Shown: positions 22,160 to 41,899 of the stretch, in pieces
How the letters are laid out: each line of letters starts with the position of its first letter
Numbering within the stretch: the first letter of the stretch is position 1
Position numbers and translations under genes: made by a program
From: Mogibacterium sp.
Lineage (GTDB): Bacteria > Bacillota > Clostridia > Peptostreptococcales > Anaerovoracaceae
Length of the DNA stretch: 64,000 nucleotides
Direction: 5' to 3'
Assembly (NCBI GenBank): GCA_017404265.1
Contig: JAFRCS010000006.1
Coordinates: forward strand, 1-64,000
The notes under the pieces: model-generated
What the model was told of the DNA's origin: nothing
Databases searched by the model: none
Seen by the model: only the letters and a program-made list of their open reading frames with translations

Positions 22160-23194
22160 TTATTTCTTGTATTTCTCTATACATTCTATGAATGTATCGT
22201 AGACTTCGGAATCTACTTTTTCCTTGATGCTGTCGCGCACTCCGGCGCTTTCCTCAACGATGGCGTTATAGGTCTCCTCATCGATCTTCAGTATCTGAGT
22301 GCCGCTGTCCTCGATGGTCTTTACCCTGTCGGCTATCCTGTCATCGGATGCCTGACGGGCATACTCAGTCGCTGTAGCGGCGGCTTCCCTGAGGATCGCC
22401 TGATCTTCTTCCGGCATGTTCTTAAAGAACTCGTCGTTCATAATCAGAGTTATCAGATGCGGCAGGTGGTTGGTCTCAACGACGTAATCCTGCTGCTCAT
22501 ACAGCCTGTTGGACACGATGACCTCGTAAGGGTTCTCCTGCGCGTCTATCGTGTGCTGCTGCAGACCGATATATACCTCGGCAAAGCTCATAGGCGTCGG
22601 ATTGGCTCCAATCGACTTCCAGAAAGCCAGGTGGAACGGATTCTCCATGGTGCGGATCTTCTGTCCCTTGAAGTCTTCTATCGACTTCACCGGCTTGTTG
22701 GTGCTCATGATACGGAAGCCCTGATCGGCTATGCCGAGCAGCTGATATCCGCCGTTTTCATAGACGCTGCTGACCAGACTGCTGAATTCAGGATCATCCA
22801 GTACCTCCCTGCACTCGTCGAGATTCTCAAAGGCGCAAGGCACGTCGAAGATCGCGAGGTCAGGCATGAAGGTGACCTGAGGAGCCGTATTCTGCACTAC
22901 GAACGGGATGTCTCCGTCCTTGCAGGACTCCAGCAGCTCACGGTCGCCGCCCAGAGTTGAGTTGGCATAGACTTGTATCTTTATGCGTCCGTCGCTGAGT
23001 CTGTCTACTTCTTCTGCGAATTTTTCCGCATAGATCTGAGTGACAGTATCCTCCGGGCTCGCTGTCGCGAGCGGATAAGCGTATCTCTGCTCTCCGTCAT
23101 TTTTGCCGCACGCTGTCATAATCATTCCAATCAGCAAAACGCTGATGAACAGTACCGCAAGGCGAAGGTGTTTGTAATCATTCATTTTTCTCAT
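22160..23194 (-). CDS. TRAP transporter solute-binding protein DctP (lipoprotein)
   Basis: The extracytoplasmic receptor of a TRAP transporter, 344 residues. It has a lipoprotein signal peptide (VLLIGMIMTACG), so it would be anchored outside the membrane. The ligand region has the conserved arginine that binds the carboxylate (GQKIRTMENP) and the family stretch FAEVYIGLQQHTIDAQENP. GGAGG lies 6 nt before the ATG. It starts 10 nt after dctM. The operon context (dehydroquinate dehydratase, YdiB-like dehydrogenase) suggests a shikimate- or quinate-like acid as ligand. That is inference. Confidence 0.93.
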   Translation of the reverse strand: MRKMNDYKHLRLAVLFISVLLIGMIMTACGKNDGEQRYAYPLATASPEDTVTQIYAEKFAEEVDRLSDGRIKIQVYANSTLGGDRELLESCKDGDIPFVVQNTAPQVTFMPDLAIFDVPCAFENLDECREVLDDPEFSSLVSSVYENGGYQLLGIADQGFRIMSTNKPVKSIEDFKGQKIRTMENPFHLAFWKSIGANPTPMSFAEVYIGLQQHTIDAQENPYEVIVSNRLYEQQDYVVETNHLPHLITLIMNDEFFKNMPEEDQAILREAAATATEYARQASDDRIADRVKTIEDSGTQILKIDEETYNAIVEESAGVRDSIKEKVDSEVYDTFIECIEKYKK

Positions 23195-23204
23195 GACGCA
23201 CCTC

Positions 23205-24494
23205 CTACAGCAGCACCAGCGAGAATGCCGGTACGAAAGTGAACAGCAGCAGCGCTATCATGAAGAGCCCTATCATAGGCAAAGCCTTCCTTGCTATCTG
23301 CATGACCGGAACGTCCGTCAGCGCGCTGGCTACAAAGAGGTTGACTCCTATAGGCGGAGTTACGAATCCTATAGCCAGGTTGACTACCATTATCACACCG
23401 AACTGGATCGGATCCATGCCGATGCCCTCCGCTATAGGCAGGAGTATCGGTGTAAGGATAAGGATAGCCGGCGTCGTATCCATGACCATTCCAACAAGAA
23501 GCAGGAACAGGTTTATAACGAGCAGTATCACGACCTTGCTTGAGAAGTTGCCGAGTATGAACGAGCTGACCGTCTGAGGCACCTGCATGAGTGTGAGCAC
23601 TCTCGAGAACGCCGTCGACGCCGCCAGTATGAACAGTATCGGCGTGAAAGTCTTTATCGCCTCAACGAGTATCCCCCACAGGTCTTTTACCTTGATCTCC
23701 TTGTATATGAACAGGCTCACTATGAGCGCGTAGTATACAGAGATGACGGCAGCCTCCGTCGGAGACGTGATGCCGGAATATATGCAGCCGAGTACGATGA
23801 CAGGGCTGAGTATGGCCCAGAAGCTCTCCTTGAATACCTTGCCGAAGCCTTTCTCATGAAGCTTTCCGATCTCCGCCTGTATCCTGACTTTGTCTTCACC
23901 GTTCTTTTTGCAAAAGAACACGGCGTAGCCCATCAGGAGAGCGGCAATGACCAGTCCCGGGATGATTCCCGCGAGAAAGAGATCGCTTACCGATGCGCCT
24001 GATGCCATTCCGTACATGATGAACGGAATGCTTGGCGGTATGATGACGCCCAGTCCGCCGGCGACCGCTACGACAGAAGTCGAAAAGGTCTTGTCGTAGC
24101 CCAGCCCGATCAGGATCGGGATGGTCATGCTGCCTACGGCAGCGACGGTCGCCGGAGCCGATCCTGAGATGGCTCCGTAGAACAGGCATGTAATGATGAC
24201 CGCGCAAGGCATGCCCGCTGTGAACCTTCCGAAGAAGTAAGCAAATATGTCGAATATCTTGCGCGATATGCCGCCCTTGGCCATGATGATGCCCGAGAGT
24301 ACGAACATCGGTACAGCCAGCAGCGGAAAGCTGTCAAGTCCGCCAAACATCGCCCTGATGAGATACTTAGCTCCCACCGTGAACGACGGGTCGAAAATGT
24401 GCGGCAGCACGGCTGTTATGCCGAGCGTAATGCCTACAGGTATCGCTATGATAAGGAATACCACAAACAGTATGAACAATAATCCTACCGGCAT
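23205..24494 (-). CDS. TRAP transporter large permease DctM
   Basis: A 429-residue permease with about 12 membrane helices that carries out sodium-driven uptake of the solute delivered by DctP. Characteristic stretches are GLDSFPLLAVPMFVLSG, GSMTIPILIGLGYDK, AVAGGLGVIIPPSIPFIMYG and AIGFVTPPIGVNLFVAS. It lies 2 nt after dctQ and 10 nt before dctP, so all three parts of the transporter are made together. Confidence 0.95.
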   Translation of the reverse strand: MPVGLLFILFVVFLIIAIPVGITLGITAVLPHIFDPSFTVGAKYLIRAMFGGLDSFPLLAVPMFVLSGIIMAKGGISRKIFDIFAYFFGRFTAGMPCAVIITCLFYGAISGSAPATVAAVGSMTIPILIGLGYDKTFSTSVVAVAGGLGVIIPPSIPFIMYGMASGASVSDLFLAGIIPGLVIAALLMGYAVFFCKKNGEDKVRIQAEIGKLHEKGFGKVFKESFWAILSPVIVLGCIYSGITSPTEAAVISVYYALIVSLFIYKEIKVKDLWGILVEAIKTFTPILFILAASTAFSRVLTLMQVPQTVSSFILGNFSSKVVILLVINLFLLLVGMVMDTTPAILILTPILLPIAEGIGMDPIQFGVIMVVNLAIGFVTPPIGVNLFVASALTDVPVMQIARKALPMIGLFMIALLLFTFVPAFSLVLL

Positions 24495-24496
24495 GG

Positions 24497-25069
24497 CTAC
24501 TCCTTTCCGGCCTCGGCCGACGCGGCCTGGCCTGCTTCAATAAATGACTCAGGAGTATTGCGTTCCGGATGAGCAGGATCATAGACGTTCTGTCCGAGAG
24601 AGACTCTCAGTTCTATGATCCACCTCTGGATTATCCTGAACGCTACCAGTACGAACGATACGAAAGGCGCCGCCTGTATGTAATACATCGGTATCCCGAG
24701 GGCCGGGCTCACCTGACCGCTCGTTACGGCCGACATCATGTACGAGAAAGCGAACGGTATCATGTAGAAGAAAAACGCCAGCTCTATCGTATGATTGACG
24801 ACCTTGATTATCGCCTTCGTGCGTCTTGAAAATTGCGCCACGAACTGTTCTATCTTGATCGATATGCACCTCTTGGTGCAGTAGCTTACGCTCAGGAAAC
24901 CTGCCCATATGAACAGATATCTTGTGAGCTCCTCGGTCCACGACAGCGATGCCTTGAGAGCAAATCTCGAGAAGACCTGTACACCCATTATCACTGCCAT
25001 TGCCAGCAGCAGCAGGGTCAGCAGGAATTCCTCCAGATTGTGATCAAGCCATTTTATTGCTTTTGTCAT
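24497..25069 (-). CDS. TRAP transporter small permease DctQ
   Basis: A 190-residue protein with four membrane helices, the small membrane subunit of the TRAP transporter. Family-typical features are LDHNLEEFLLTLLLLAMAVIMGVQVFSRF at the start (shortened: LEEFLLTLLLLAMAVIM) and SWTEELTRYLFIWAGFLS. It starts 15 nt after aroD and ends 2 nt before dctM. Confidence 0.93.
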   Translation of the reverse strand: MTKAIKWLDHNLEEFLLTLLLLAMAVIMGVQVFSRFALKASLSWTEELTRYLFIWAGFLSVSYCTKRCISIKIEQFVAQFSRRTKAIIKVVNHTIELAFFFYMIPFAFSYMMSAVTSGQVSPALGIPMYYIQAAPFVSFVLVAFRIIQRWIIELRVSLGQNVYDPAHPERNTPESFIEAGQAASAEAGKE

Positions 25070-25084
25070 GGCTTTTACCTTTCT

Positions 25085-25846
25085 TTACAGAGCTCCGTGC
25101 AGCAGTGTGAGTACCTGCTTGAGATCCTCGACTCCCATCTGTCCCGGCGCGGAAGCCTTTGCGGCAGCTCCGAAAGTCAGCGCCGATCCGAAGACTTCGC
25201 CTGCAAGACGGCTGATAACGCCTGTTCCTGCCATGGACATTGTGATGATAGGACGGTCGGCGTACTCGTTTGCCATCTCTTCTGTGGCAGCGAGCAGTGT
25301 CAGAACGTCTTTCTTGTTCTGAGGCATGACCGCGATCTTAGGGATGTCAGCTCCCAGATCCTGCATCTTGCGGAGACGTCCTACGATGTCGTCCTTGTCA
25401 GGAGTCTTGAAGAAATCGTGGTTGGATGCTACTACCTTGACGCCTGCAGCGTGAGCTCCGTCGATGATCTTCTTTACGATCTCATCTCCGGTGAACACTT
25501 CTACGTCTACCAGATCTACATAGCCTGTCTGAGCAGCCTTGATGTTGATGTCAGCATAGACCTCATCCTCGATGGCCTTCTCTCCGCCTTCCTTGGAAGT
25601 ACGGAAAGTCATCAGTATAGGCATGTCGCCCAGCACCTCGCGGAGGTCCTTCAGAACGTCCACGAGCTTATCGAAGTCGAATACGTTCTCAAACCAGTCG
25701 ATCCTCCACTCCACTACGTCAGCAGGGAGCTTAGTGATGGCTCTTGCTTCATCAAGGATGGCTTCTTTTGTTACTCCTACGATAGGCACGCAGATCTTAG
25801 GCATGCCTTCGCCGATAACTGTATTTCTTACCTTAACAGTGTTCAT
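25085..25846 (-). CDS. aroD: Type I 3-dehydroquinate dehydratase
   Basis: It interconverts 3-dehydroquinate and 3-dehydroshikimate through a Schiff base. The 253 residues contain the catalytic His in VVASNHDFFKTP and the Schiff-base Lys in PKIAVMPQNKKDVLTLL, with EWRIDWFENV near the start. Type I enzymes serve either biosynthesis or catabolism. Here the gene is between an MFS transporter and a TRAP transporter, next to a YdiB-like dehydrogenase, and no other aromatic biosynthesis genes are present. That favours catabolic use. The E. coli ydiN-ydiB-aroD arrangement is similar. Confidence 0.93.
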   Translation of the reverse strand: MNTVKVRNTVIGEGMPKICVPIVGVTKEAILDEARAITKLPADVVEWRIDWFENVFDFDKLVDVLKDLREVLGDMPILMTFRTSKEGGEKAIEDEVYADINIKAAQTGYVDLVDVEVFTGDEIVKKIIDGAHAAGVKVVASNHDFFKTPDKDDIVGRLRKMQDLGADIPKIAVMPQNKKDVLTLLAATEEMANEYADRPIITMSMAGTGVISRLAGEVFGSALTFGAAAKASAPGQMGVEDLKQVLTLLHGAL

Positions 25847-25880
25847 TGTTTCCTTCCTTTCTGTTAAGCGCGTGCGCAGA

Positions 25881-27095
25881 TTACTCCTCTGCAGCCGCGA
25901 GCATCTTGCTGTAGTTCATGTTTACGAATACTCCCAGCAGAGTTCCGATAGCTGTCAGAACGATGTTCATTACCATTACTCCGGACGGAGTCATCGAAGC
26001 AGCTGCTGTAAGGAGTGTGTAGTTGCACAGCGATGATGCGATCATTACGAGAGCTGTAACTGTTCCCTTGATCTTAGGGAAGAGCATGTTGCATACGGAA
26101 GTTGCGATCTGCAGAAGTCCGCCTGCTCCGAACCAGCCGAGTACGAATGCGCCGATCTTGAGGATTCCCTGTGAAGGAGCCATAAGTACTGCTACCATCA
26201 TGAGAGCGCAGACAGCAGGGTATACCATTACGAATCTCACGTCCTTGACCTTGCTTGTCAGCAGAGCTGTGACAACGAGTCCGATCATTGTTCCGATAGC
26301 ATAGAACGACTGCATGGACTGCGGCTCAGCCCAGCCAACGACGTCCTTTGCGAAGTTCTGTGCGCAGTTGAGCCAGAGCTGGAATGTACCTGTGCATGTG
26401 AATCCGATGAGGATCATAGCAATGGAACCAGCGGAGAAGTTAGCGTGCTTGATGCTCTGAAGAAGTCCTTCCTTCTTCTCTGTTTCAGCCTTCTTGTCAG
26501 TATCAGGCAGAGGGAAGAAGAGGATGAGAGCCATCAGTACGAGGTAAGCGATTCCGACGATGTAGAACAGCTTGTTGTAAGAAACAAGTCCGCCTGCAGT
26601 CTGGCCTACTGTGATTCCGAGGAAGAACGGCAGCAGGAACTGGGAACCGGAGATAGCAAACTTGATGCCCATTGTAGCAACGCCAGGAGCCTTGTTGATG
26701 ATCTCAGCAACAGCAGGGTAGATACCTGTGTCGAGGAACGAGTTTGCGATACCGCCTACGATAGCGCATACATAAGCGATCTTATAGCCTGCGCCGCCGC
26801 CTGCGTTGAATGCCATTGCGAGTCCGATCAGATAAACGGCATAAGCGAATCCGCCGATAGCTGTCGAGATCCTGCGTCCGAGTTTGTCCGAAAGAGGTCC
26901 TGCGAACGGGAGCGCGATAAGTCTTCCGAGACCGAGAGCTGCAGCGATAGCTGTGATAGCCATAGCCTCAACGTTCCAGCTTCCGGCAAGAGCGTCCTTG
27001 ATTACAGCCTGTCCGAGAACGGAGCAGCCGATACCGTGCAGGAAGTAGTTCAGATAAAGAACTATTACACTTGGTAAATACTTTTTGTTAGTCAT
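25881..27095 (-). CDS. MFS transporter, YdiN-like
   Basis: A 404-residue major facilitator with 12 predicted helices in two halves separated by a charged loop (LPDTDKKAETEKKEGLL). The MFS signature after helix 2 reads GPLSDKLGRRIST. The opening SVIVLYLNYFLHGIGCSVL resembles the E. coli YdiN/YdiM group. It lies between the dehydrogenase (45 nt upstream) and aroD (34 nt downstream). It is a plausible carrier of shikimate, quinate or a product, possibly exporting the end product while the TRAP system imports the substrate. Substrate and direction are inference. Confidence 0.88.
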   Translation of the reverse strand: MTNKKYLPSVIVLYLNYFLHGIGCSVLGQAVIKDALAGSWNVEAMAITAIAAALGLGRLIALPFAGPLSDKLGRRISTAIGGFAYAVYLIGLAMAFNAGGGAGYKIAYVCAIVGGIANSFLDTGIYPAVAEIINKAPGVATMGIKFAISGSQFLLPFFLGITVGQTAGGLVSYNKLFYIVGIAYLVLMALILFFPLPDTDKKAETEKKEGLLQSIKHANFSAGSIAMILIGFTCTGTFQLWLNCAQNFAKDVVGWAEPQSMQSFYAIGTMIGLVVTALLTSKVKDVRFVMVYPAVCALMMVAVLMAPSQGILKIGAFVLGWFGAGGLLQIATSVCNMLFPKIKGTVTALVMIASSLCNYTLLTAAASMTPSGVMVMNIVLTAIGTLLGVFVNMNYSKMLAAAEE

Positions 27096-27140
27096 GATTA
27101 TTTCCTCTCATTTTCCATATATCTTTTGATTTGTTTTAAC

Positions 27141-28019
27141 TTAGTCATCGTAGCTGATGCCGAGGACTTCCTTCATGTGCTCGATAGGCATTGGCTTGCC
27201 TGTCCAGAGCTCGAATCCGGCAGCTCCCTGGAAGAGCATCATGCCCAGTCCGTTCATGGTCTTGCAGCCGACTTCCTTGGCCATCTTTCTCATCTTTGTC
27301 AGAAGGCATCCGTAAGGAACGTCTACAACGATGAGCTCAGGTCTGAAGAAGCTCTTGTCAGGAACAACGGAAACGTCCTCGAGCGGCTTCATGCCTGCGC
27401 CTGTAGCGTTTACGAAGAGGTAGCTGTCTGCCATCTCTCTGCGGAGAGCCTCAGTATCTGCGAGGTCAAACATCTTTGCTTTGCAGTTCGTGTTCTCGTT
27501 GATCTTCTTGACTGTGTCCTCTCCTACCTCATAGAACTTGTCCTTGATGTTGAAGATGGAGATCTCAGCAACTCCATCAAGAGCAGCCTGGATCTCGATC
27601 GCTGTAGCTGCACCGCCGGCTCCTACGATAGTCATCTTCTTGCCGATAGGATCGATGTCGTTATCCTTGATGGCTGCCATGAAGCCGATACCGTCTGTGA
27701 TGTATCCCTTCAGGTGACCGTTATCGTTGACGATCGTGTTTACTGCTCCGCAGAGTTCTGCTGCAGGGTCGAGTTCGTCAAGATACTGGCCTACCAGCGT
27801 CTTGTTAGGCATCGATACGTTGGACCCTCTCATCTTGAGTGTACGGATGGCCTTTACAGCGTCCTCGATCTCATCTGCGCCTACCTCGAATGCAAGATAT
27901 GCATAGTCAGCGCCTACTTCTGCGAATGCTTCGTTCTGCATAGCAGGCGAGCTGGAGTGACGTATAGGATAAGCCATGAGACCGATAAGTTCGGTATGTC
28001 CTGTGATTCTTTCTGCCAT
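27141..28019 (-). CDS. aroE: Shikimate/quinate dehydrogenase, YdiB-like
   Basis: A 292-residue NAD(P)-dependent dehydrogenase that interconverts shikimate and 3-dehydroshikimate (or quinate and dehydroquinate). Substrate motifs are YPIRHSSSPAMQNEAF and SNVSMPNKTL, with the catalytic Lys. The cofactor loop is GAGGAATAIEIQ, and the end motif GMMLFQGAAGFELWTG is very close to E. coli YdiB, as is INENTNC. ATG 28019 was chosen because AAAGGAG lies upstream. It is the first gene of the operon that ends at 22160, and it is divergent from the LysR gene. Confidence 0.9.
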   Translation of the reverse strand: MAERITGHTELIGLMAYPIRHSSSPAMQNEAFAEVGADYAYLAFEVGADEIEDAVKAIRTLKMRGSNVSMPNKTLVGQYLDELDPAAELCGAVNTIVNDNGHLKGYITDGIGFMAAIKDNDIDPIGKKMTIVGAGGAATAIEIQAALDGVAEISIFNIKDKFYEVGEDTVKKINENTNCKAKMFDLADTEALRREMADSYLFVNATGAGMKPLEDVSVVPDKSFFRPELIVVDVPYGCLLTKMRKMAKEVGCKTMNGLGMMLFQGAAGFELWTGKPMPIEHMKEVLGISYDD

Positions 28020-28162
28020 TTTTATTTCTCCTTTATTTTGATCCTGTGATCTTTCAGGCTTATTCAGCCTCTCCCGGTACAATGTCTCTGATTCACCACA
28101 AGCCAGAAGACAACATTGTTAAAACAATAACTATTTCTTGTTTATATTTTAACTATCTTCTT

Positions 28163-31385: not shown

Positions 31386-31417
31386 CAGACACGCACTACC
31401 GCGTGTCTGTTTTTTTT
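31386..31417. terminator. Terminator between the flavoenzyme gene and the pdxA-like gene
   Basis: Arms CAGACACGC and GCGTGTCTG are followed by eight T residues on the plus strand. The A-run before it (AAAAG) can serve the convergent minus-strand operon. Confidence 0.88.
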
Positions 31418-31430
31418 ATAACTGTGGTCT

Positions 31431-32432
31431 CTACCGACCTGTGAAGTGCGGAGCATACTTTGCAGCGATCCTGACCGCTTCTGCCATTCCGACTGCTTCT
31501 GCAATGCCCTTGCCCGCGATATCGAACGCCGTTCCATGAGCGGCAGACGTGCGCAATATAGGCATGCTGTTTGTGATCTCTACAGTGCGATCGAAATCCA
31601 GCGTCTTAGCGGCTATATGCCCCTGATCATGATAAAGAGAAAGGACAGCGCTGAACCTTCCGATTGCCGCATGGTGGAAGACCGTATCTGCAGATTCCGG
31701 ACCTGTTACATCGTAGCCTCTGCTCCTGAGATCCTCTACCGCAGGGACGATCTCACTGACCTCTTCCCATCCGAAAAGACCGTGTTCACCTGAATGCGGG
31801 TTGAGTCCCGCCACTGCCATCGTTCCTTCAGTCACTCCCAGTCTGGCAAGAGCCTCTGTGCACCTTTCAACATAATCTATGACCCTTTCCTTTGTGATCA
31901 TATCGACCATCGCGCGCATCGACACATGCCTTGTAAGGAAAAATATCCTCATTCCGCACGTTTCAAACATCGCCAAAGGATCATTCGTATTTGTCAGTTT
32001 TCCGAAGATCTCGGTATGCCCTATGAAATCTACGCCCGCTGCGCGGAGCGCCTCCTTGTTTATTGGAGCTGTAGATATTGCGTCAGCTTTCCCTTCCATG
32101 GTGATTTGCGTGGCCTTTTCGATATACTCGAATGCCGCCCTGCCGCACATCGCGCTGATCTCTCCATACCTGAATCTGCCCATGTCTACATTATCAAGAT
32201 CGATCAGGTTCAGAACGCCTGCGCTGTAATCTCCACTTTCAGGAGCCTCCACGATGTTGATCCTCAGATCAGCACCTGTTACCGCTATCGCCTCCTCAAG
32301 GATCTGCGCGTCACCGATCACGATGCAGTTTGTCTCCGCAAAGAGGTCTTTGTCTGCAACAGTCCGTGCAACTATCTCAGGGCCGATCCCTGCAGGATCT
32401 CCCATAGTTACTGCAATCAGTGGTTTATCCAT
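31431..32432 (-). CDS. PdxA-family 4-phospho-sugar-acid (hydroxythreonine-4-phosphate) dehydrogenase
   Basis: A 333-residue NAD-dependent, metal-requiring dehydrogenase of the PdxA family. Recognisable motifs are TMGDPAGIGPEI, the metal His in FIGHTEIFGKL, the central GLNPHSGEHGLFGWEE and the second metal His in YHDQGHIAAKTLDFD. PdxA serves vitamin B6 synthesis, while PdxA2 relatives oxidise 4-phospho-D-threonate or -erythronate to give dihydroxyacetone phosphate. No pyridoxine genes are near and it is the last gene of a sugar-phosphate operon, so the catabolic role is favoured. The usual partner kinase (DUF1537) is not in the window. It begins 4 nt after rpiB. Confidence 0.88.
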   Translation of the reverse strand: MDKPLIAVTMGDPAGIGPEIVARTVADKDLFAETNCIVIGDAQILEEAIAVTGADLRINIVEAPESGDYSAGVLNLIDLDNVDMGRFRYGEISAMCGRAAFEYIEKATQITMEGKADAISTAPINKEALRAAGVDFIGHTEIFGKLTNTNDPLAMFETCGMRIFFLTRHVSMRAMVDMITKERVIDYVERCTEALARLGVTEGTMAVAGLNPHSGEHGLFGWEEVSEIVPAVEDLRSRGYDVTGPESADTVFHHAAIGRFSAVLSLYHDQGHIAAKTLDFDRTVEITNSMPILRTSAAHGTAFDIAGKGIAEAVGMAEAVRIAAKYAPHFTGR

Positions 32433-32436
32433 GATA

Positions 32437-32874
32437 TCAGAACCAGATGTCTTCTATTTCGTTTATGCGGCGAAGATGCTTGCCTGCCTCGAAATCCGTA
32501 GTCATCCATGTATCAATGATCTGGAATGCAAGCTCCTGACTTATCATCCGGGCTCCCATGCAGACAACGTTTGCGTTATTGTGGCGTCTGCACATCTCCG
32601 CCATCTCTACAGATGTGCAAAGTGCGGCTCTGATGCCCGGCACCTTATTGCACGCTATGCTGATACCGATTCCGGATCCGCAGACGGCGATGCCTCGCTC
32701 AGCCTCGCCGGACGCCACAGCGCGTCCTACAGCGTGTCCGTACTTCGGATAGTCTACCGACTCAGTCGAGTCACATCCTACATCGATTACCTCATGGCCT
32801 TCGCTGATCAGCTTTGCCTTGATCGCTTCCTTGAGTTCATATGCTGCGTGATCGCTTCCAACAACCAATTTCAT
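32437..32874 (-). CDS. rpiB: RpiB/LacAB-type sugar-phosphate isomerase
   Basis: A 145-residue isomerase of the RpiB family. It interconverts ribose-5-phosphate and ribulose-5-phosphate, or related tetrose/hexose phosphates in catabolic paralogues. The start MKLVVGSDHAAYELKEAI, the active-site Cys in GIAVCGSGIGISIACNK and MCRRHNNANVVCMGAR are typical. Within an operon holding transketolase and ribulose-phosphate epimerase, the pentose phosphate role is the simplest reading. It lies 25 nt after pfkA. Confidence 0.92.
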   Translation of the reverse strand: MKLVVGSDHAAYELKEAIKAKLISEGHEVIDVGCDSTESVDYPKYGHAVGRAVASGEAERGIAVCGSGIGISIACNKVPGIRAALCTSVEMAEMCRRHNNANVVCMGARMISQELAFQIIDTWMTTDFEAGKHLRRINEIEDIWF

Positions 32875-32899: not shown

Positions 32900-33883
32900 T
32901 CAGCGTGTTAGTGATTCAAGCATATCAATGATATACTCTTCCGTATCCTTCATCGTTGACTCCATTGTCAGTGCTTCATCGATGTCGTAATCGGTGAAGA
33001 TACCGTTCCTGTATACAACCACACGGTTTTTTGCGCCTTCAGCCAAAAGATCAATAGCCTTGGCGCCCATTATTGAAGCATATACCCTGTCGCGGCAGGT
33101 CGGATTGCCTCCGCGCTGTATATAGCTCAGGGTCGTAGTACGTACCCGGATCCCCCCGGCTTTCTCCAGCTTTCCGGCTATCTCCTCTGCACGGCCGACA
33201 CCTTCTGCATTGATGAGGATGTTGTTGTTCTTGCCTGTTGCCCGGTGCGCGGCGACTTTCTCCATTACTTTCTTTTCATCACCATCGTATGTCTCGGGTA
33301 TAAGCACCTGTTCTGCTCCTGCGGCTATACCGCTCCATAATGCAATATAACCGGCATCGCGCCCCATCACCTCTATAAGACAACACCTCTCGTGCGATGA
33401 AGCTGTATCCCTTATGTTGTCTATCGCCCTCATCGCCGTATTGACTGCAGTATCGAAGCCTATGGTGTACTCCGAACACCCGATATCTCCATCTATAGTC
33501 CCCGGGATACCGATCACGTTTACTCCCTTGCGGGCAAGGCTCTGCGCTCCTCTGAACGATCCGTCTCCGCCGATCACGACGAGCGCGTCGATCCCGTGTT
33601 TCCGGCAGATATCTGCCGCCTTCTGCTGGTATTCATCAAGCTTCATCTCAAGGCACCGCTCCGTTTCGAGTATAGTGCCTCCCCGTTCAAGGATATTGCT
33701 GACAGAGTCCATTCCCATATCGACGAATTCCTCGTTCAGCAGTCCGAGATATCCTCTGCGTATCCCTTTTACCTTGAAGCCCTTGAATATTCCTCTTCTG
33801 ACTACAGCTCTGATAGCCGCATTCATCCCCGGCGCGTCGCCGCCGCTGGTCAGAACCCCTACAGTCTTTATATCAGTATTCAT
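32900..33883 (-). CDS. pfkA: 6-phosphofructokinase, ATP type (PfkA family)
   Basis: A 327-residue kinase of the PfkA family that phosphorylates fructose-6-phosphate. It has LTSGGDAPGMNAAIRAVV, VIGGDGSFRGAQ (Gly after GGD, typical of ATP users) and the catalytic loop GIPGTIDGDI. The last is unusual: the common sequence is TIDND, with Asn between the two Asp. Here it is Gly, while both Asp are kept. VMGRDAGYIALWSGIA and QRGGNPTCRDR complete the substrate site. It starts 8 nt after the gntR stop. A second PFK of the PPi type lies in the same operon. Confidence 0.9.
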   Translation of the reverse strand: MNTDIKTVGVLTSGGDAPGMNAAIRAVVRRGIFKGFKVKGIRRGYLGLLNEEFVDMGMDSVSNILERGGTILETERCLEMKLDEYQQKAADICRKHGIDALVVIGGDGSFRGAQSLARKGVNVIGIPGTIDGDIGCSEYTIGFDTAVNTAMRAIDNIRDTASSHERCCLIEVMGRDAGYIALWSGIAAGAEQVLIPETYDGDEKKVMEKVAAHRATGKNNNILINAEGVGRAEEIAGKLEKAGGIRVRTTTLSYIQRGGNPTCRDRVYASIMGAKAIDLLAEGAKNRVVVYRNGIFTDYDIDEALTMESTMKDTEEYIIDMLESLTR

Positions 33884-33891
33884 TTATGCCC

Positions 33892-34608
33892 TCACTTGCC
33901 GGAGAGCTCCTCCTCAAAGTAACTGCCTCTGACCTTTCTGCTCAGGTTGTGTTTATCTCCCTCCCTGATCGCGTCCAGCAGCAGTCTGTGAGCGTTTATG
34001 AGTTCTTCCGTCTTTCCTCCGTTTATCATTTCGGATACAGTGCGGAATCTGATTGCATATGTCAGCGTCCTCACGACTCTGTTGACCTTGTCCGCCATCG
34101 GGTTCTTTCCCATTTCTGCGATCTTGTCATGGAAACGGTTGTCAACATCGAAGAACCTGTTGACAGGATCCTCCGAGCTTATAGCCTCCTTCATTTCTTC
34201 CAGGAGTTCCTCAAGCTCATTGAGTTCCTCTTCATCGTGATGATCTATAGCAAGCTTCATCATTCCTGCTTCTGTCATCTCGCGCAGTTCCATCAGGTTT
34301 TCGAACGACTCCTGATTGAGAATGATACCGTAGATCATAGGATCGATCATGCTCTCCTTGTAACCGCTGCAAACGAAGGTTCCTTCCGAGCGCTTGCTCT
34401 CGAGTACTCCGAGATATGCAAGTATCTTGATGGCCTCGCGAACGCTGCTCCTGGCAACGCCGAGCGAGTCGGCGAGATCCGGTTCAGGAGGAATCTTGTC
34501 TCCCGGCTTCAGATCTCCGTTTCTGATGGCGTCGGTCAGCTGATTGATGACGCTCTGTACTACCGATTCCTTTTTTAAACTTTTAAGATATGTAGGTGCT
34601 GGTGTCAT
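33892..34608 (-). CDS. GntR-family regulator, FCD subfamily, of the sugar-phosphate operon
   Basis: A 238-residue repressor-type protein. The winged helix is at about residues 15-80 (GDKIPPEPDLADSLGVARSSVREAIKIL in part). The FCD ligand domain is at about 95-225, with DVDNRFHDKIAEM and an acidic LDAIREGDKHN end. It lies inside the operon between the two phosphofructokinase genes. An operator-like TTGTATGACAT sits upstream of it, and two TTGTCTGACAT-type sites flank the operon promoter, so it is the natural candidate to regulate all eleven genes. The effector is probably an organic acid or sugar phosphate. Confidence 0.9.
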   Translation of the reverse strand: MTPAPTYLKSLKKESVVQSVINQLTDAIRNGDLKPGDKIPPEPDLADSLGVARSSVREAIKILAYLGVLESKRSEGTFVCSGYKESMIDPMIYGIILNQESFENLMELREMTEAGMMKLAIDHHDEEELNELEELLEEMKEAISSEDPVNRFFDVDNRFHDKIAEMGKNPMADKVNRVVRTLTYAIRFRTVSEMINGGKTEELINAHRLLLDAIREGDKHNLSRKVRGSYFEEELSGK

Positions 34609-34712: not shown

Positions 34713-35939
34713 CTATTCCTGCAGCGTAAGGTGCTGAGGCACGCCTTCCGAGTAATACGGCTCAATCTCTCCCATAATCAGCGGACGCGCATACTCAATA
34801 AACTCATTACTGACGTATGTTCCGTCATTTATGATCCATTCAAGAGGCACTTTGCGCTCAACATTTGCTACCTCATGTATGTCGAAGCTGTCATAAGAGG
34901 TGAGATATGGCCTTCTCGAGTCGACCTTGATGGTTATCATCTCACCGGTATTTCCTTCAAATGCTTTCTGAGCTGCAAGGTATCCCGCATTATACGCCTC
35001 ATCTGCGTCTGTACGCGACACCACGTGCGAAGCGCACCTCTGAAGTGTCGAGAATTCGATCGATCTTGCCTTTACTCCGGTTTTCTCTGTTATGAGTGAA
35101 GCGAGATATGCGCCGACTCCGGAGAGCTGTTTGTGTCCGAAAGCATCAAGCTTGTCCGAAGTATTGCTGAGTTCACATACGAAGCGTCCGTCAGCAAGTT
35201 TGACCCCTTCAGATACAGCGATGACTATCGAGTTTTTTTCTTTAGCGAGATTACCTACGCGTTTTACGAAATCATCCGGATTAAAGTCCACCTCAGGGAG
35301 ATAGATAAGGTCAGGAGCATTGTTTCCCAGAGCTGCAGCTGCCGTGAGCCATCCCGCATGACGTCCCATGATCTCTACGATCACTGCGGAAGTCCTGTAA
35401 GGTCCATAGCAATCGTTATCTACAACGATTTCTTTAAGCGATGTAGCAATATACTTCGCGGCAGAGCCGTAGCCTGGGCAGTGGTCTGTCACAGGCAGGT
35501 CGTTATCGATGGTCTTTGGGATGCCCATGAACCTTTGAGGTTTCCCATGCGCTGCAGCATAATCGGAAAGCATCTTTACTGTATCCATCGAGTCGTTTCC
35601 GCCGTTGTAGAGGAAGTACTGGATGTCGTATTTCTCCATGACAGAGAAGATCTTTTCATATACATCTTCATTCCCCTCTATTTTTGGCAGCTTATAGCGG
35701 CATGAACCGAGGAATGCTGATGGTGTTCTCTTCAAGAGTGAAACATCCTGCGCATTTTTCACCTGTTTTCTGAGATCGATTATGTTCTCGTTGAGGAAGC
35801 CCTCGATGCCGTAGTGCATTCCGTATATCTTCTTTACGCCGGCATCCTTCGAAGCTTCGATGGCGCCTGCGAGACTTGAGTTGATCACGGCCGTCGGACC
35901 GCCCGACTGACCTATGATTATATTGCCCTTTATACTCAT
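34713..35939 (-). CDS. pfp: 6-phosphofructokinase, pyrophosphate-dependent type
   Basis: A 408-residue phosphofructokinase whose active site looks pyrophosphate dependent. The phosphoryl-donor loop reads NGGNDSMDT instead of GGDGS, and the catalytic loop reads IPKTIDNDLP, where Lys marks PPi users. Other PFK features are GQSGGPTAVINSSL and VEIMGRHAGWLTAAAAL. Such enzymes can also phosphorylate sedoheptulose-7-phosphate, allowing a pentose phosphate route without transaldolase. ATG 35939 was chosen because GGGAGG lies upstream, within the rpe end. The gene begins 1 nt after the rpe stop. Confidence 0.88.
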   Translation of the reverse strand: MSIKGNIIIGQSGGPTAVINSSLAGAIEASKDAGVKKIYGMHYGIEGFLNENIIDLRKQVKNAQDVSLLKRTPSAFLGSCRYKLPKIEGNEDVYEKIFSVMEKYDIQYFLYNGGNDSMDTVKMLSDYAAAHGKPQRFMGIPKTIDNDLPVTDHCPGYGSAAKYIATSLKEIVVDNDCYGPYRTSAVIVEIMGRHAGWLTAAAALGNNAPDLIYLPEVDFNPDDFVKRVGNLAKEKNSIVIAVSEGVKLADGRFVCELSNTSDKLDAFGHKQLSGVGAYLASLITEKTGVKARSIEFSTLQRCASHVVSRTDADEAYNAGYLAAQKAFEGNTGEMITIKVDSRRPYLTSYDSFDIHEVANVERKVPLEWIINDGTYVSNEFIEYARPLIMGEIEPYYSEGVPQHLTLQE

Positions 35940-35940
35940 T

Positions 35941-36612
35941 TTAAAATCCTCCCTTGATCGCTCTGATAGCAGCAGCTCTGTACTTTGCTCCGAAAACCGC
36001 GGAGCCTGCAACTATTAGCTCTGTTCCTGCTTCTCTTACTATATCTGCATTGCCTTCGCCGACTCCGCCGTCTATCTCTATAACGTAGCTGTATCCCTTT
36101 TCATCTTTAAGAGCGCTGTAGTAGCGGATCTTGTCCAGCGAATCAGGCATGAACTTCTGTCCTCCGAATCCCGGCTCTACCGACATGACGAGTATGAGAT
36201 CAATGTCATCGAGATACTCATCAAGGACTTCCGGCGCCGTCTTTGGCTTGACTGAGACTCCGGCCTTAACGCCGCAGGAATGAATATGGTCAAGCGTATG
36301 CTTCAGATCACTGCAAGCCTCGTAATGCACTGTAATGAACTCAGTATTGTCAGTGACGAAATTCTCAATGTATCTGTCCGGATCCTTTATCATCAGATGA
36401 ACATCGTAAGGAACAGTCGTGTAGGAGTTGAGGCTCTTCATTACACTGGCTCCGAAGCTGATATTCGGAACGAACATCCCATCCATTACATCGATATGCA
36501 GATAGTCGATACCGTATCCGCATACATCTGCAACATCCTCACCGAGCCTTGCAAAATCCGCAGCAAGTATTGACGGAGATATCATTGCTTTATCTACTTT
36601 TGCCATTTCCAT
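35941..36612 (-). CDS. rpe: Ribulose-phosphate 3-epimerase
   Basis: A 223-residue TIM-barrel enzyme that interconverts ribulose-5-phosphate and xylulose-5-phosphate. It shows PSILAADFARLGEDV, the metal/catalytic YLHIDVMDGMFVPNISFG, DVHLMI, VEPGFGGQKF and EIDGGV. The position between the GltS-like permease and the PPi-type PFK, in an operon with transketolase and RpiB, completes the non-oxidative pentose phosphate set except for transaldolase. Confidence 0.93.
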   Translation of the reverse strand: MEMAKVDKAMISPSILAADFARLGEDVADVCGYGIDYLHIDVMDGMFVPNISFGASVMKSLNSYTTVPYDVHLMIKDPDRYIENFVTDNTEFITVHYEACSDLKHTLDHIHSCGVKAGVSVKPKTAPEVLDEYLDDIDLILVMSVEPGFGGQKFMPDSLDKIRYYSALKDEKGYSYVIEIDGGVGEGNADIVREAGTELIVAGSAVFGAKYRAAAIRAIKGGF

Positions 36613-36702: not shown

Positions 36703-38019
36703 TTATTTGCGACCAATCACAAATCCCAGTATCAACGCGACTGCCAGCATTCCTACTGTTCCGAGCATCAGGTTGTGCGCTCCTGCAGCCGTTACCATGA
36801 ACATAGGTGCGATCGTCAGGAAGAAGTTCTGAGTACTGATCTGCCAGAGCGGTGTCGCTGCGATCAGGTTAGGACCTGCGTCAGTTTCGAGCTCAGGGTC
36901 AGCGATCCTCAGCAGCATCATTCCTGTTGCAGTTGATCCTGTCCATGCTCCGAACATTACCATCGCGTTCTCGAGCCAGTTCTGCTTGAGCCAGAGCTTT
37001 GGCAGAACCATCAGAATGATCGTTGTCAGGATCAGTCCTGCGAACGAGATCGTCAGGATAGCCGCCGCGTTGTTCATGATTACATCAAGCTTCATCGTAG
37101 CGATAGCCGTAATGATCAGGTATTCGAGTGCGAGTGTGCCGATATGTGCCAGCGACTCGTTGTCTATGAACTCCTTTGCAGGTGTCTTCTTTACGATCAC
37201 GCCGAATGCCAGTGAAACGAGTATAGCAGGAACGTAGATCGCGAATCCGGAGAACAGCGGAACCATATGCAGGATCTGCAGGAGGCCATATGCCACCAGC
37301 ATGATCGCCAGTACGATACCGAAGTGCAGTGTCAGCGGGTCGAAAGCGATGTCCGATGTGTATGCTGTCATGAACTTGAATCTGTTTTCCTTGTTCAGGA
37401 TACCGGTGTAATCCTCTTTGCTGAGGTTGCCGGACTTCTCTGCTGTGACCCATCCCTTGCGGATACCGTAGTTGAGGATCACGATACCTACGATGATGCC
37501 GTAAAGCATACCGATGGTTGCGTAAGTGGTTCCGAATGCGGATGCCTCGTCGTAGTTCCAGTAGCCGAGTGTATCGTAGATACCTGCGATGACCTGCGGG
37601 ATACCGTGCGCGCCATAGAATGCTCCGAACGGCAGAAGTGCAGCTCCGTCAGGCAGTCCGAAGACCTTGCCGAGACCCATTGCTGAAAGTACCTGTGCAG
37701 CAATTACCGTTGCCGAGATCAGGAATATCAGCGAGCACTTCTTGATCATCCTTCTGTCGAACGACAGCGCGATGAACTGTGTTACGAAGAGTATCGCGAG
37801 CAGCGGGTTGGCAAATCCGCTTACGTTGTCAGACCAGTGGATGTAGTACGGGCAGAACTTGCCGAGTACTTCCGATCCGAGCAGGAGTCCTACAAGGCCT
37901 CCGACTACGGCTACCGGTATGAACATCTTCTGGAGGAATCCTACCTTTGATCTCAGGAAGAGACCGACTATGAGCAGGCCGCTCGCCCAGGCAAAATCCA
38001 TCAATATTGTTTCAAACAT
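36703..38019 (-). CDS. GltS-family (sodium:carboxylate) permease paired with a TRAP-type binding protein
   Basis: A 438-residue membrane protein with about 11-12 helices, of the GltS sodium/glutamate symporter family. Two pseudo-repeats are visible, with re-entrant-loop-like stretches LPFGAFYGAHGIPQVIAG and MFGAWTGSTATGMMLLRI. The family imports glutamate in enteric bacteria. Here it stands in a sugar-phosphate operon, 12 nt after a gene for a TRAP solute-binding lipoprotein that has no DctQ/DctM partner in the window. A binding-protein-dependent GltS transporter would be new. A second GltS-like gene lies at 54712-56097 without a binding protein. Confidence 0.85.
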   Translation of the reverse strand: MFETILMDFAWASGLLIVGLFLRSKVGFLQKMFIPVAVVGGLVGLLLGSEVLGKFCPYYIHWSDNVSGFANPLLAILFVTQFIALSFDRRMIKKCSLIFLISATVIAAQVLSAMGLGKVFGLPDGAALLPFGAFYGAHGIPQVIAGIYDTLGYWNYDEASAFGTTYATIGMLYGIIVGIVILNYGIRKGWVTAEKSGNLSKEDYTGILNKENRFKFMTAYTSDIAFDPLTLHFGIVLAIMLVAYGLLQILHMVPLFSGFAIYVPAILVSLAFGVIVKKTPAKEFIDNESLAHIGTLALEYLIITAIATMKLDVIMNNAAAILTISFAGLILTTIILMVLPKLWLKQNWLENAMVMFGAWTGSTATGMMLLRIADPELETDAGPNLIAATPLWQISTQNFFLTIAPMFMVTAAGAHNLMLGTVGMLAVALILGFVIGRK

Positions 38020-38031
38020 GTTGTCCTCCTT

Positions 38032-39078
38032 CTATTCCACCTGAGCTGCCGCCTCGCGGATCTTCGCCACGAGTTCGGCTGTCCACTCATTCTGTATTTC
38101 GAAGTTTGTATAGACATCACGTGTTGCTTCCTTGAAAGCCTCGATATCCGGCGTTTCATTTACGGTCATTCCGGCTTCCTTAAGCTTTGCCAGCTGATCA
38201 TCTTCGTCGGCAGCTACCGCTTCGCGGTGCTCTTTACCGAATTTCTTTGCGCCTTCAAGCAGCACGTCCTTGATATCCTGCGGCAGCTTCTTCCATGTGC
38301 TGCCCGAGAACACCAGATTCTTGGACTCATACTTGTGATTTGTGATGGTCATGTACTGATTGACTTCGTTTATCTTATTTGCGTATATGTTTGCGATAGG
38401 GTTTTCCTGTCCGTCGAAGGTTCCCTGTGCAAGTGCGTCGTAGGTCTTGCTCCATGCGAACTTCGTTGTGCTCGCTCCGAGCTCCTTGAAGATCGCTGCC
38501 GTCATGTCGTCTTCCGGTATCCTCATTTTGAGTCCTTCGACATCTGCCGGTCCATTGATCTCGCGCACACTGTTTGTTATCTGTCTCATGCCGTTCTCCC
38601 AGAAGGCGAGCTGCACGAGGTTATAATTGCTGAGTTCAGCTGTGAGTCCTTCCGCGATCTCTTCGTTGTCCACTACTGCCCATGCCTGCTCATAACTGGT
38701 AAACAGGAACGGCAGTCCCAGAGTTGCGATCTTAGGCGCATACATGGCTTCAACTCCCTGCGGCATCATCATCGCGTCGAGTTCTCCGGTGACCAGCTGC
38801 TGAGCCATGTCGCTATTGTCTCCCAACTCTTCATTAGGATATATACGGACGATCACTCTGCCCCCGGTCTGCTCATTTACCCATTCAGCGTAGTGCTGAA
38901 GCGAGATGTTGATCAGGTTGTCTTCAGTGTCGCTGTGTCCGAGTCTTATGATGTACTCCGCAGCACCTTCCGGACTGTCTCCGGACCCGCTGCCCTGCGA
39001 GCCGCAGGCGGTCAGCGACAATGACAGAGCCATGAGGAATGCCAGCATTACCGCCAGAGCCTTGAATCTTTTCTTCAT
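38032..39078 (-). CDS. Orphan TRAP-type solute-binding lipoprotein (DctP family)
   Basis: A 348-residue receptor with a lipoprotein signal (residues 1-24, LSLSLTACG). It has the ligand-binding core of DctP proteins: GLKMRIPEDD with the carboxylate-binding Arg, then WSKTYDALAQGTFDGQENPIANIYANKINEV in part. GGAGA lies upstream of ATG 39078, which I prefer to the longer 39114 form because it begins the signal peptide. No DctQ or DctM gene accompanies it. The next gene encodes a GltS-like permease. It begins 42 nt after the transketolase C gene. Confidence 0.9.
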   Translation of the reverse strand: MKKRFKALAVMLAFLMALSLSLTACGSQGSGSGDSPEGAAEYIIRLGHSDTEDNLINISLQHYAEWVNEQTGGRVIVRIYPNEELGDNSDMAQQLVTGELDAMMMPQGVEAMYAPKIATLGLPFLFTSYEQAWAVVDNEEIAEGLTAELSNYNLVQLAFWENGMRQITNSVREINGPADVEGLKMRIPEDDMTAAIFKELGASTTKFAWSKTYDALAQGTFDGQENPIANIYANKINEVNQYMTITNHKYESKNLVFSGSTWKKLPQDIKDVLLEGAKKFGKEHREAVAADEDDQLAKLKEAGMTVNETPDIEAFKEATRDVYTNFEIQNEWTAELVAKIREAAAQVE

Positions 39079-39120: not shown

Positions 39121-40053
39121 TTAAAGAGCCAGCGCTGTCTCAACAATATTGTCAACCGTGATGCCGTTCTTTGCAAGCAGTCTTTCGTAAGGAGCGGACT
39201 CACCGAACTGATCCTGGATACCGATCCTCTTTACTTTGCCCTTGCCCATCTCAGCTGCGACCTCGCATACAGCGCTTCCGAGTCCGTTGATGATGTTGTG
39301 GTCCTCTACCGTGACGATCTTGCCGATCTCCTCAACGCAGGCCTTTACTGCTTCAACGTCGAGAGGCTTGATAGTGTGCATGTCGAGAACTCTAGCCGAA
39401 ACACCCTTTTCCTCCAGAGCCTTTGCCGCCTTGATCGCGAGACTTACTGTATCGCCGTTTGCGATGATGGCTACATCTTTACCATCCTGGATCTGATAGG
39501 CCTTTCCGATCTCGAACTCTACGTCCGGTCCGTAAACCTGCTCCATGGCGTCTCTTGTGAATCTCAGGTACATTGGTCCGTATGTCTCTGCTGCTGCTCT
39601 GACGAGCTTGCGTGCCTGATTGTAGTCAGCAGGCATCATGATCGAGATGTTAGGAATGGTTCTGAGGATTCCCATGTCCTCGATAGCCTGGTGCGATGCT
39701 CCGTCATTAGCCGGTGTGAATCCGCCGTGCGAGCATGCGATCTTGACATTGAGGTTTGTATAGCAGATCTCCTGACGGATCATCTCGCAGATCCTCATCG
39801 ATCCGAATGCCGCGTATGTTACAACGAACGGGATCTTTCCGCATGTAGCGAGTCCTGCCGCTACGCCCGCGCCGTTCTGCTCCGCGATACCTACATTGAG
39901 GTACTGGTCAGGAAGCTGCTTCTTGAATTCACCGGTCTTGCAGCTCTTGCCGATGTCTATGTCCAGAACTACGATTTCCGGATTGTCTTTTCCTACTTCT
40001 ACTATTTCATCGCCGAAGCCGTTTCTTGTAGGGATCTTTTTCAGTTCACTCAT
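39121..40053 (-). CDS. tktB: Transketolase, C-terminal subunit
   Basis: The C-terminal half of a split transketolase, 310 residues, containing the pyrimidine-binding and C-terminal domains. Key motifs are YLNVGIAEQNGAGVAAGLA with the catalytic Glu, FGSMRICEMIRQEICY, and SHGGFTPANDGASHQAIEDMG in part. It partners the N-terminal subunit encoded 15 nt upstream. Split transketolases are usual in many Clostridia. In catabolic loci such pairs can also act on unusual phosphates such as apulose-4-phosphate. Confidence 0.93.
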   Translation of the reverse strand: MSELKKIPTRNGFGDEIVEVGKDNPEIVVLDIDIGKSCKTGEFKKQLPDQYLNVGIAEQNGAGVAAGLATCGKIPFVVTYAAFGSMRICEMIRQEICYTNLNVKIACSHGGFTPANDGASHQAIEDMGILRTIPNISIMMPADYNQARKLVRAAAETYGPMYLRFTRDAMEQVYGPDVEFEIGKAYQIQDGKDVAIIANGDTVSLAIKAAKALEEKGVSARVLDMHTIKPLDVEAVKACVEEIGKIVTVEDHNIINGLGSAVCEVAAEMGKGKVKRIGIQDQFGESAPYERLLAKNGITVDNIVETALAL

Positions 40054-40068: not shown

Positions 40069-40908
40069 TTATATCAGCTGAGCCTTGAGTTCTTCCATTG
40101 CCTGTGCGTACTGTTCATCATTAGGAGCTACGCCGTGCCAGCCGACCTGGTCCTCCATGAAGCTGACGCCCTTGCCCTTGACTGTTGCTCCGATAAGAGC
40201 TTTTGGATTTCCGTTCTGTGCCTCAGGCGCGTAGCACTTATCGAGCACTTCTACGGTCTCTTCCATGCTGTTGCCGTCGTAGTAGTAGACGTCCCAGCCG
40301 AATGCCTTGAACTTGGCGCCGAGGTCTCCGTTAGGCATTACATCATCGCATGTTCCGTCGAGCTGGAGTCTGTTTACGTCGACGAATACGATGAGATTAT
40401 CGAGTTTATACTTATTTGCCGTGTTGGCAGCTTCCCAGATCTCGCCTTCCTGAGTTTCGCCGTCTCCGACTACACAGAAGACCTTATAATCCTTCTTGTC
40501 CATCTTTCCGGCAAGAGCCATTCCTGCTGCGCAGGCAAGTCCCTGTCCGAGTGATCCTGTCGAGATGTCGATGCCCGGGCACTTGATCATCGAAGGGTGT
40601 CCCTGAAGAGGGGAGCCTTCTTTTCTAAGGGTGTCGAGAACTTCGAGAGGGAAGTATCCGAGCGCTCCGAGAGCTGCGTACTGGATAGGGCATACATGGC
40701 CTTTTGAAAGGACCATTCTGTCTCTGTCTTCCCATCTTGGGTTCTTAGGGTCAACGTTCATGTACTTGAAATAACATGCTGTTACGAACTCTGCAGCTGA
40801 CAGCGATCCACCCGGATGGCCTGACTGCGCTTTGTAGATCATATCTACGACTTTCATGCGCAGGTCTGTTGCGGCGTTCTTGAGTTCTTTGATTGAAACA
40901 TCTTTCAT
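40069..40908 (-). CDS. tktA: Transketolase, N-terminal subunit
   Basis: The thiamine-diphosphate-binding half of a split transketolase, 279 residues. It has SGHPGGSLSAAEF, LSKGHVCPIQYAALG, the TPP motif VVGDGETQEGEIWEAANTANKYKLDN in part (GDGETQEG ... N) and GWHGVAPND at the end. It is the second gene of the operon, after the PanE-like reductase. Together with TktB it transfers two-carbon units between pentose, heptose, tetrose and triose phosphates. Confidence 0.93.
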   Translation of the reverse strand: MKDVSIKELKNAATDLRMKVVDMIYKAQSGHPGGSLSAAEFVTACYFKYMNVDPKNPRWEDRDRMVLSKGHVCPIQYAALGALGYFPLEVLDTLRKEGSPLQGHPSMIKCPGIDISTGSLGQGLACAAGMALAGKMDKKDYKVFCVVGDGETQEGEIWEAANTANKYKLDNLIVFVDVNRLQLDGTCDDVMPNGDLGAKFKAFGWDVYYYDGNSMEETVEVLDKCYAPEAQNGNPKALIGATVKGKGVSFMEDQVGWHGVAPNDEQYAQAMEELKAQLI

Positions 40909-40960: not shown

Positions 40961-41899
40961 CTAGCATCCGAGGTAAAGCGACTGCTTTGCCAGAACGAGA
41001 TTGAGTATCATCTCGTTGCATGGAGTAGGGATCCCGTACTGCTCTCCGAGCTTTACGACTGCTCCGTTGATGATGCGGATCTCTGTCTCGCGCTGATGTG
41101 TAACTGCCTGTACCATCGAGCTGATCGTTTCGTCTGTAGCGCGGGATACTTCGTAGCAGTGCTCGAGCTCTTCTTCGTAATCGAGCGTGCATCCTGCCGC
41201 GTTAGCAACTGCGATCGCTTCCTTGATAAGTCTCTTTGCGAGCTCATTTGCATACGGGTTCTTGCTGATGAATCCGTTCGGAGTCTCAAGCAGCGCGCTT
41301 ACGCCGTTGATGGCTACGTTAGCCGAAAGCTTGTGCCAGATGGCGTTCAGAACGTTCTCGTGAACATCGACTTCGAGTCCTGCCTCGCGGAATGCCTCGG
41401 CAACTTCCTCTACCTTTGCCATAGGCGCCTTAGGCGATCCCATGTTTGTTGCTCCGTAACCTGTGTGTCTTACGTGACCCGGCTCGATCGGTGTAGCTCC
41501 GAAAGCTGTGTTTCCGATGATGATCTGCTCTTCAGGAACTACCTTGGCGATCTCGTCATAGTTGCCGTAGCCGTTCTGCAGGCACATGATCATGGTGTGG
41601 TCGTCGATCATCGGCAGCGCGTTGCGTACTGCTGCTTCCAGGAACTTGTAGTGAACGAATACTACGAGCAGGTCTACAACTCCGATGTCCTTAGGATCTG
41701 TTGTTGCAATAGTAGGGTGGTAAGCGACTGTCTCACCGTTGCCGTATCCAGGTGCGCATTTATCAAGAAGGATCCCGTTCTTCTTGATCGCTTCAATCAC
41801 TGGTTCATATGTGTCCAGTACACAAACTTCGTGCTTCTGCAGAAGGTAGCTCGCATAGCAGCTTCCGATTGCTCCGCATCCTACAAATCCGATTCTCAT
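40961..41899 (-). CDS. PanE/ApbA-like 2-ketoacid reductase
   Basis: A 312-residue NAD(P)-dependent reductase of the ketopantoate reductase family. It has the N-terminal Rossmann motif GFVGCGAIGSCYASYL and the C-terminal helical domain with the conserved Lys and Asn in AIWHKLSANVAINGVSALL. The pantothenate role is possible. As first gene of a carbohydrate-acid operon, directly behind the regulated promoter, it more likely reduces or oxidises a sugar-derived keto/hydroxy acid. The ATG follows AAGGAGGAGCACTGAT, a strong ribosome binding site. Confidence 0.85.
   Translation of the reverse strand: MRIGFVGCGAIGSCYASYLLQKHEVCVLDTYEPVIEAIKKNGILLDKCAPGYGNGETVAYHPTIATTDPKDIGVVDLLVVFVHYKFLEAAVRNALPMIDDHTMIMCLQNGYGNYDEIAKVVPEEQIIIGNTAFGATPIEPGHVRHTGYGATNMGSPKAPMAKVEEVAEAFREAGLEVDVHENVLNAIWHKLSANVAINGVSALLETPNGFISKNPYANELAKRLIKEAIAVANAAGCTLDYEEELEHCYEVSRATDETISSMVQAVTHQRETEIRIINGAVVKLGEQYGIPTPCNEMILNLVLAKQSLYLGC

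Follow-up and report, generated by a model that had tools for sequence, protein, structure and literature searches.

An operon of Mogibacterium sp. carries the gene of a DctP-type solute-binding lipoprotein directly upstream of a GltS-like permease gene, which raises the question of whether the two products work as one transporter. The window, by which we mean the whole stretch of 64,000 nucleotides that was analyzed (contig JAFRCS010000006.1), also holds TRAP genes and a second GltS-like gene, both of which bear on the answer. Before 2025, soluble receptors were known for only two families of secondary transporters, TRAP and TTT. TAXI-GltS, in which a TAXI receptor is encoded beside GltS or fused to it without TRAP membrane genes, is the third (Jaques et al., August 2025; PMC12344293). 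Its receptor binds glutamate, the coupling to transport being still unverified there, and TAXI and DctP receptors are contrasted as unrelated in sequence (PMC12344293). The premise of the original prediction, namely that GltS proteins are not known to use a binding protein, is out of date with this publication.

Receptor, permease and operon

The proposed receptor is encoded on the minus strand (38032..39078) and consists of 348 amino acids. As originally predicted, it is a lipoprotein of the DctP family (PF03480, 266 bits; TIGR00787, above cutoff), with a lipobox LTAC and a Cys25 that is invariant across the aligned relatives; the profile of the TAXI receptor subfamily, PF16868, does not match, only PF03480 does. 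An intergenic gap of 12 nt with the ribosome-binding site AAGGAGG (38020..38031, minus strand) separates it from the gene of the proposed membrane partner (36703..38019, minus strand). Both this distance and the assignment to the GltS family had been correctly read, since the 438-aa product matches Glt_symporter (PF03616) with 42.7 bits, above the curated cutoff of 26.

Canonical GltS proteins of our sample reach roughly 350-430 bits with the same profile. In the alignment with canonical and GltS-like permeases, the first re-entrant loop reads GAHGIPQ where canonical GltS has GGHGT, its GAHG motif (37603..37614, minus strand) being GGHG in the relatives, and the second loop reads GSTATGMMLLRIADPELET against the canonical GLGATPNAMANM, with GSTATGMMLL in the place of GLGATPNA. 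A GGXG-type motif in both loops, which we take to be a mark of the GltS/ESS family and compared with the canonical rows, is not present in the permease (GAHG in loop 1, GSTAT for GLGAT in loop 2). Profile and subfamily alignment place the permease in the GltS/ESS family as a divergent member. No solved structure matches it by sequence, and the AlphaFold2 model built from 15 sequences is of low confidence (mean pLDDT 46); no claim or fold search rests on this model. Given the divergent loop motifs and the low PF03616 score, glutamate is not a safe guess for its substrate.

For the second GltS-like gene of the window (54712-56097), no match to Pfam Glt_symporter exceeds the threshold, and its product shares about 26% identity with the first permease. 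Among its flanking genes no binding protein was identified, in agreement with the original prediction. This second permease is 53% identical to one in another locus (L029) and adjoins acyltransferase and ABC protein genes.

The pair lies within a minus-strand run of genes from 41899 to 31431, between the ends of which no terminator-like site was found on that strand; a terminator-like stem follows the last gene at 31386-31409. The run starts with a PanE/ApbA-type ketopantoate-reductase-like oxidoreductase (40961..41899; PF02558/PF08546) and the N-terminal (40069..40908) and C-terminal (39121..40053) subunits of a transketolase, which match the respective halves of the NCBIfam transketolase models. 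Downstream of DctP and the permease lie a ribulose-phosphate 3-epimerase (35941..36612; TIGR01163 above cutoff), a PPi-dependent phosphofructokinase-like kinase (34713..36011; NF010675 above cutoff), a GntR/FCD-type transcriptional regulator (33892..34608; PF00392, PF07729), a second phosphofructokinase-like gene (32900..33883; an ORF whose family was read by eye, with the equivalent position kept in L005-L009 and L020), an RpiB-type sugar-phosphate isomerase (32437..32874; PF02502, TIGR01120) and, finally, a PdxA-family dehydrogenase (31431..32432; PF04166, NF002992 above cutoff). DUF1537 and PdxA-type enzymes are linked to four-carbon acid sugars. The sugar-phosphate context of the genes favors sugar acids over glutamate as the substrate of the pair, which is probably a sugar acid; with low confidence, the operon content suggests a short one that would feed pentose phosphate or triose phosphate metabolism.

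Conservation of the pair

A scan of genome contigs yielded 16 loci from 15 other genomes in which the permease is 82-97% identical to that of the window. These genomes comprise Mogibacterium-type, Lachnospiraceae, Eubacterium and unclassified Clostridia MAGs, mostly from the ruminant gut, and the isolate FE2018. In 15 of 15, DctP (67-97% identical) is encoded directly upstream of the permease, at a gap of 1-65 nt, and no DctQ or DctM lies within any of the 16 loci; the survey of gene neighborhoods for DctP next to GltS without DctQM, proposed along with the original prediction, hence found the pair conserved. A DctP-GltS fusion gene was not seen. At four of the loci (L012, L014, L017 and L019) the pair alone persists amid unrelated genes of housekeeping or other function, which marks it as a unit by itself.

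Neither DctP nor any other binding protein is encoded next to the permease at 15 loci of its nearer relatives (22-33% identity), and no DctP was found beside Pfam GltS matches at 30 loci sampled across the phylum among the matches listed, a sample in which rare cases may be missed. With DctP upstream at every locus of the clade, versus 0 of these 45 other GltS or GltS-like loci, chance does not account for the pairing. The clade itself is rare, with two close copies among 149 genomes from the family of the window, one among 391 in the class sample (that of the window) and one among 200 from the family of FE2018. The distances of DctP and permease correlate (r=0.85, p=0.0002), in support of a joint function, although vertical or joint transfer of neighboring genes would be expected to have the same effect.

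Other GltS-like loci show associations of their own. At L068-L071, permeases of another subfamily directly follow an opine/octopine dehydrogenase-like gene, which suggests opine transport. Short GltS-like proteins of about 375 aa (L129-L131, L133-L135) are each preceded by a gene whose small product resembles the C_GCAxxG_C_C redox family as judged by reading, a conserved pairing. At L065-L067, creatininase-like, amidohydrolase and carbon-nitrogen hydrolase genes adjoin the permease, which suggests that different substrates, amide or amino-acid-derived, are transported there.

The permease relatives of 22-33% identity have no such partner beside them, so GltS-like permeases are evidently able to function by themselves, and DctP may not be needed. 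The two proteins could then be independent neighbors that merely belong to one catabolic theme, with a permease that transports alone and a DctP that scavenges or buffers at the cell surface or is left over from a lost TRAP system, and characterized GltS proteins indeed need no binding protein (PMC12344293). A leftover would be expected to decay, however, yet the clade retains the lipobox Cys, the ligand-binding Arg and Asn residues and the invariant motifs, and the pair persists while all other surrounding genes change. We consider this independence unlikely.

TRAP genes, docking surface and origin of the receptor

The original prediction also stated that DctQ and DctM genes are missing nearby. 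This holds for the operon of the pair but not for the window, where a complete TRAP set, separate from the pair, is encoded on the minus strand (22160..25069), with DctP (22160-23194), DctM (23205-24494) and DctQ (24497-25069), at a distance of 13-17 kb. It contains the only DctQM of the genome, which is 97.7% complete. A DctQM matching the GltS-linked receptor elsewhere in the genome, which would speak against the proposed pairing, was looked for; the sole DctQM is accompanied by a DctP of its own, which shares 24% identity with the GltS-linked receptor. The set is part of a cluster that the original prediction overlooked (22160-28082, minus strand), together with a type I dehydroquinase, an MFS gene and a shikimate dehydrogenase, a content that suggests TRAP uptake of shikimate or quinate.

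The GltS-linked DctP might nevertheless serve this DctQM, or its equivalent in the relatives, with the GltS-like gene encoding an independent transporter. DctQM is present in the genome and in 13 of the 15 relatives with the pair, and orphan binding proteins without adjacent membrane genes are known (PMC12344293, PMC5812351). Against such a borrowed partner stands FE2018 (G154; Lachnospiraceae), an isolate assembly of 3.2 Mb whose single DctP is the GltS-linked one and in which no DctM or DctQ match was found anywhere. The partial genome of the MAG G158 shows no DctQ, and one weak 26-bit profile match as its only DctM. In the other genomes, strong DctM matches come with a separate DctP wherever the contig extends far enough to tell. 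A borrowed DctQM would, furthermore, leave the constant position of DctP directly before the permease unexplained.

The docking surface of the receptor speaks to the same point. In HiSiaP, E172 contacts the conserved DctQ Arg30 and DctM Asn354, and the exchange E172R abolishes docking to QM and transport while ligand binding is normal (PMC9352664). By alignment to HiSiaP, the equivalent residue of the window's DctP is Lys211 (codon 38446..38448, minus strand), the meaning of the change being transferred in this way from another system. At this position, K or R is found in 17 of 17 GltS-linked DctPs, a charge reversal in every member, while all sister TRAP receptors and 30 of 31 diverse Bacillota DctPs from the phylum have E. 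The replacement is probably one ancestral event and not 17 independent ones. HiSiaP D58 and S60 were considered as further markers and dropped, because both vary among TRAP receptors. The ligand-binding Arg127, Arg147 and Asn187 are preserved in the GltS-linked DctP; with these residues kept and the docking Glu replaced, ligand binding by the receptor should be retained, whereas its docking to a TRAP QM is not to be expected. FE2018 and the docking residue led us to reject the borrowed DctQM, the main rival, which we regard as distinctly improbable.

Binding proteins feed sensors in other systems, and DctP could likewise report an extracellular substrate while the permease transports separately, but the operon is without a sensor kinase or chemoreceptor gene, its regulator is a cytosolic GntR/FCD protein and the stand-alone pairs (L012, L014, L017, L019) show no conserved sensor partner, so that a sensory role appears very improbable.

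The origin of the receptor can be traced in its relatives. In a tree of 62 DctP rows, for which the tool warns of long branches outside the group of GltS-linked and sister receptors, the GltS-linked DctPs form one clade (support 100/100) that groups (100/99) with DctPQM-linked DctPs of 51-54% identity, values from which the placement within the group is also plain. The sister loci (L072-L075, with L075 only in part) encode PanE, a split transketolase, PPi-PFK, GntR, DctP-DctQ-DctM, GntR and RpiB, and thus hold DctPQM at the position equivalent to that of DctP-GltS in the window; L074 additionally carries a DUF1537-type acid-sugar kinase (PF07005/PF17042). Across 12 positions taken as the SiaP pocket, most GltS-linked DctPs read SDNMMPVRR(D/E)WN and the sister TRAP receptors, nearly the same, SDNMMPQRREFN; the other DctP of the window (22160-23194) differs from both groups with ASDVQNPRREFN. 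One cluster (L010:475-9479) contains a GltS-linked DctP and, at the contig end, a second DctP of 53% identity, and is a possible intermediate of a permease swap. From the single receptor clade, its DctPQM-linked sisters, the similar operons and the near-identical pocket, the simplest explanation appears to be that the GltS-like permease has replaced DctQM for the same or a similar ligand.

Taken together, we put the probability that DctP and the GltS-like permease constitute a two-component, receptor-dependent GltS-type secondary transporter at about 0.75, the coupling being deduced from gene order and sequence. In the proposed mechanism, the lipid-anchored DctP at the cell surface would capture an organic acid and pass it to the permease, to which it would couple physically and which would depend on it. 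For import of the ligand, the permease would probably use an elevator motion, as in models of GltS (PMC12344293), with an ion gradient as its driving force. The receptor would descend from the DctP of a TRAP system that served the same kind of sugar or sugar-acid operon, and the GltS-like permease would have taken over the place of DctQM. The fuller account is a natural partner swap, in which DctP parted from its two TRAP membrane proteins and was taken on by a GltS-like permease unrelated to them, with operon and pocket kept, independently of TAXI-GltS, its docking surface re-tuned from Glu to Lys/Arg and its ligand a sugar acid and not glutamate; as a whole, we see the odds of this account as even.

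Relation to known systems

With DctP-type TRAP transporters (SiaPQM, DctPQM; TC 2.A.56), the pair shares the receptor fold and the ligand-binding Arg/Arg/Asn, and sister receptors are found in closely similar operons; it differs in the missing DctQ/DctM partner and in the exchange of the docking Glu for Lys/Arg. With the GltS sodium/glutamate symporters (ESS family, TC 2.A.27), it shares the PF03616 match above the curated cutoff, whereas the window permease, with its 438 aa and 42.7 bits, is altered in both loops and always accompanied by DctP.

The closest precedent is TAXI-GltS (BP0402/BP0403 of Bordetella pertussis), in which a TRAP-family receptor gene is likewise coupled to a GltS-family permease without TRAP membrane genes and receptor-dependent elevator transport has been proposed (PMC12344293). 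That class is defined by such gene pairs in disparate organisms; the DctP-GltS arrangement occurs in 16 genomes of several Clostridia families, yet in one clade. The TAXI receptor (PF16868) has no sequence similarity to DctP (PF03480), pairs with canonical GltS, binds glutamate and is in some cases fused to GltS (PMC12344293), whereas the pair of the window combines a DctP-type receptor with a divergent GltS-like permease in a context of sugar-phosphate metabolism. The family of the window organism also contains a TAXI receptor (PF16868, 239 bits) next to a canonical GltS (L117:462-2682), which sets DctP-GltS and TAXI-GltS apart as distinct. A TAXI receptor (PF16868) beside a canonical GltS at L116 is a further example of the published class, L117 and L116 being from the same family/phylum.

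As a GltS permease with a TRAP-family receptor has been published for TAXI, the receptor-assisted class itself is not new, contrary to the original prediction, whose receptor-assisted reading is well supported by the conserved pair, by FE2018 without DctQM and by the lost docking residue. For the DctP-GltS pairing, no description was found in the open-licence PMC literature or in the searched sections of PMC12344293, and a report that escaped this search is possible. The novelty lies in a receptor of the DctP type, in a GltS-like permease that is divergent and in their evident exchange with DctQM as membrane part.

Jaques et al. pointed out that further classes are needed to test the general ability of elevator transporters to accept receptors (PMC12344293). 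DctP-GltS is such a case with a built-in control, as the sister operons combine the same kind of receptor with a normal DctQM. With one named residue as a starting point, it opens the question of which residues on the receptor surface determine the choice of membrane partner, and of whether a receptor can bring a new class of substrate to the GltS fold.
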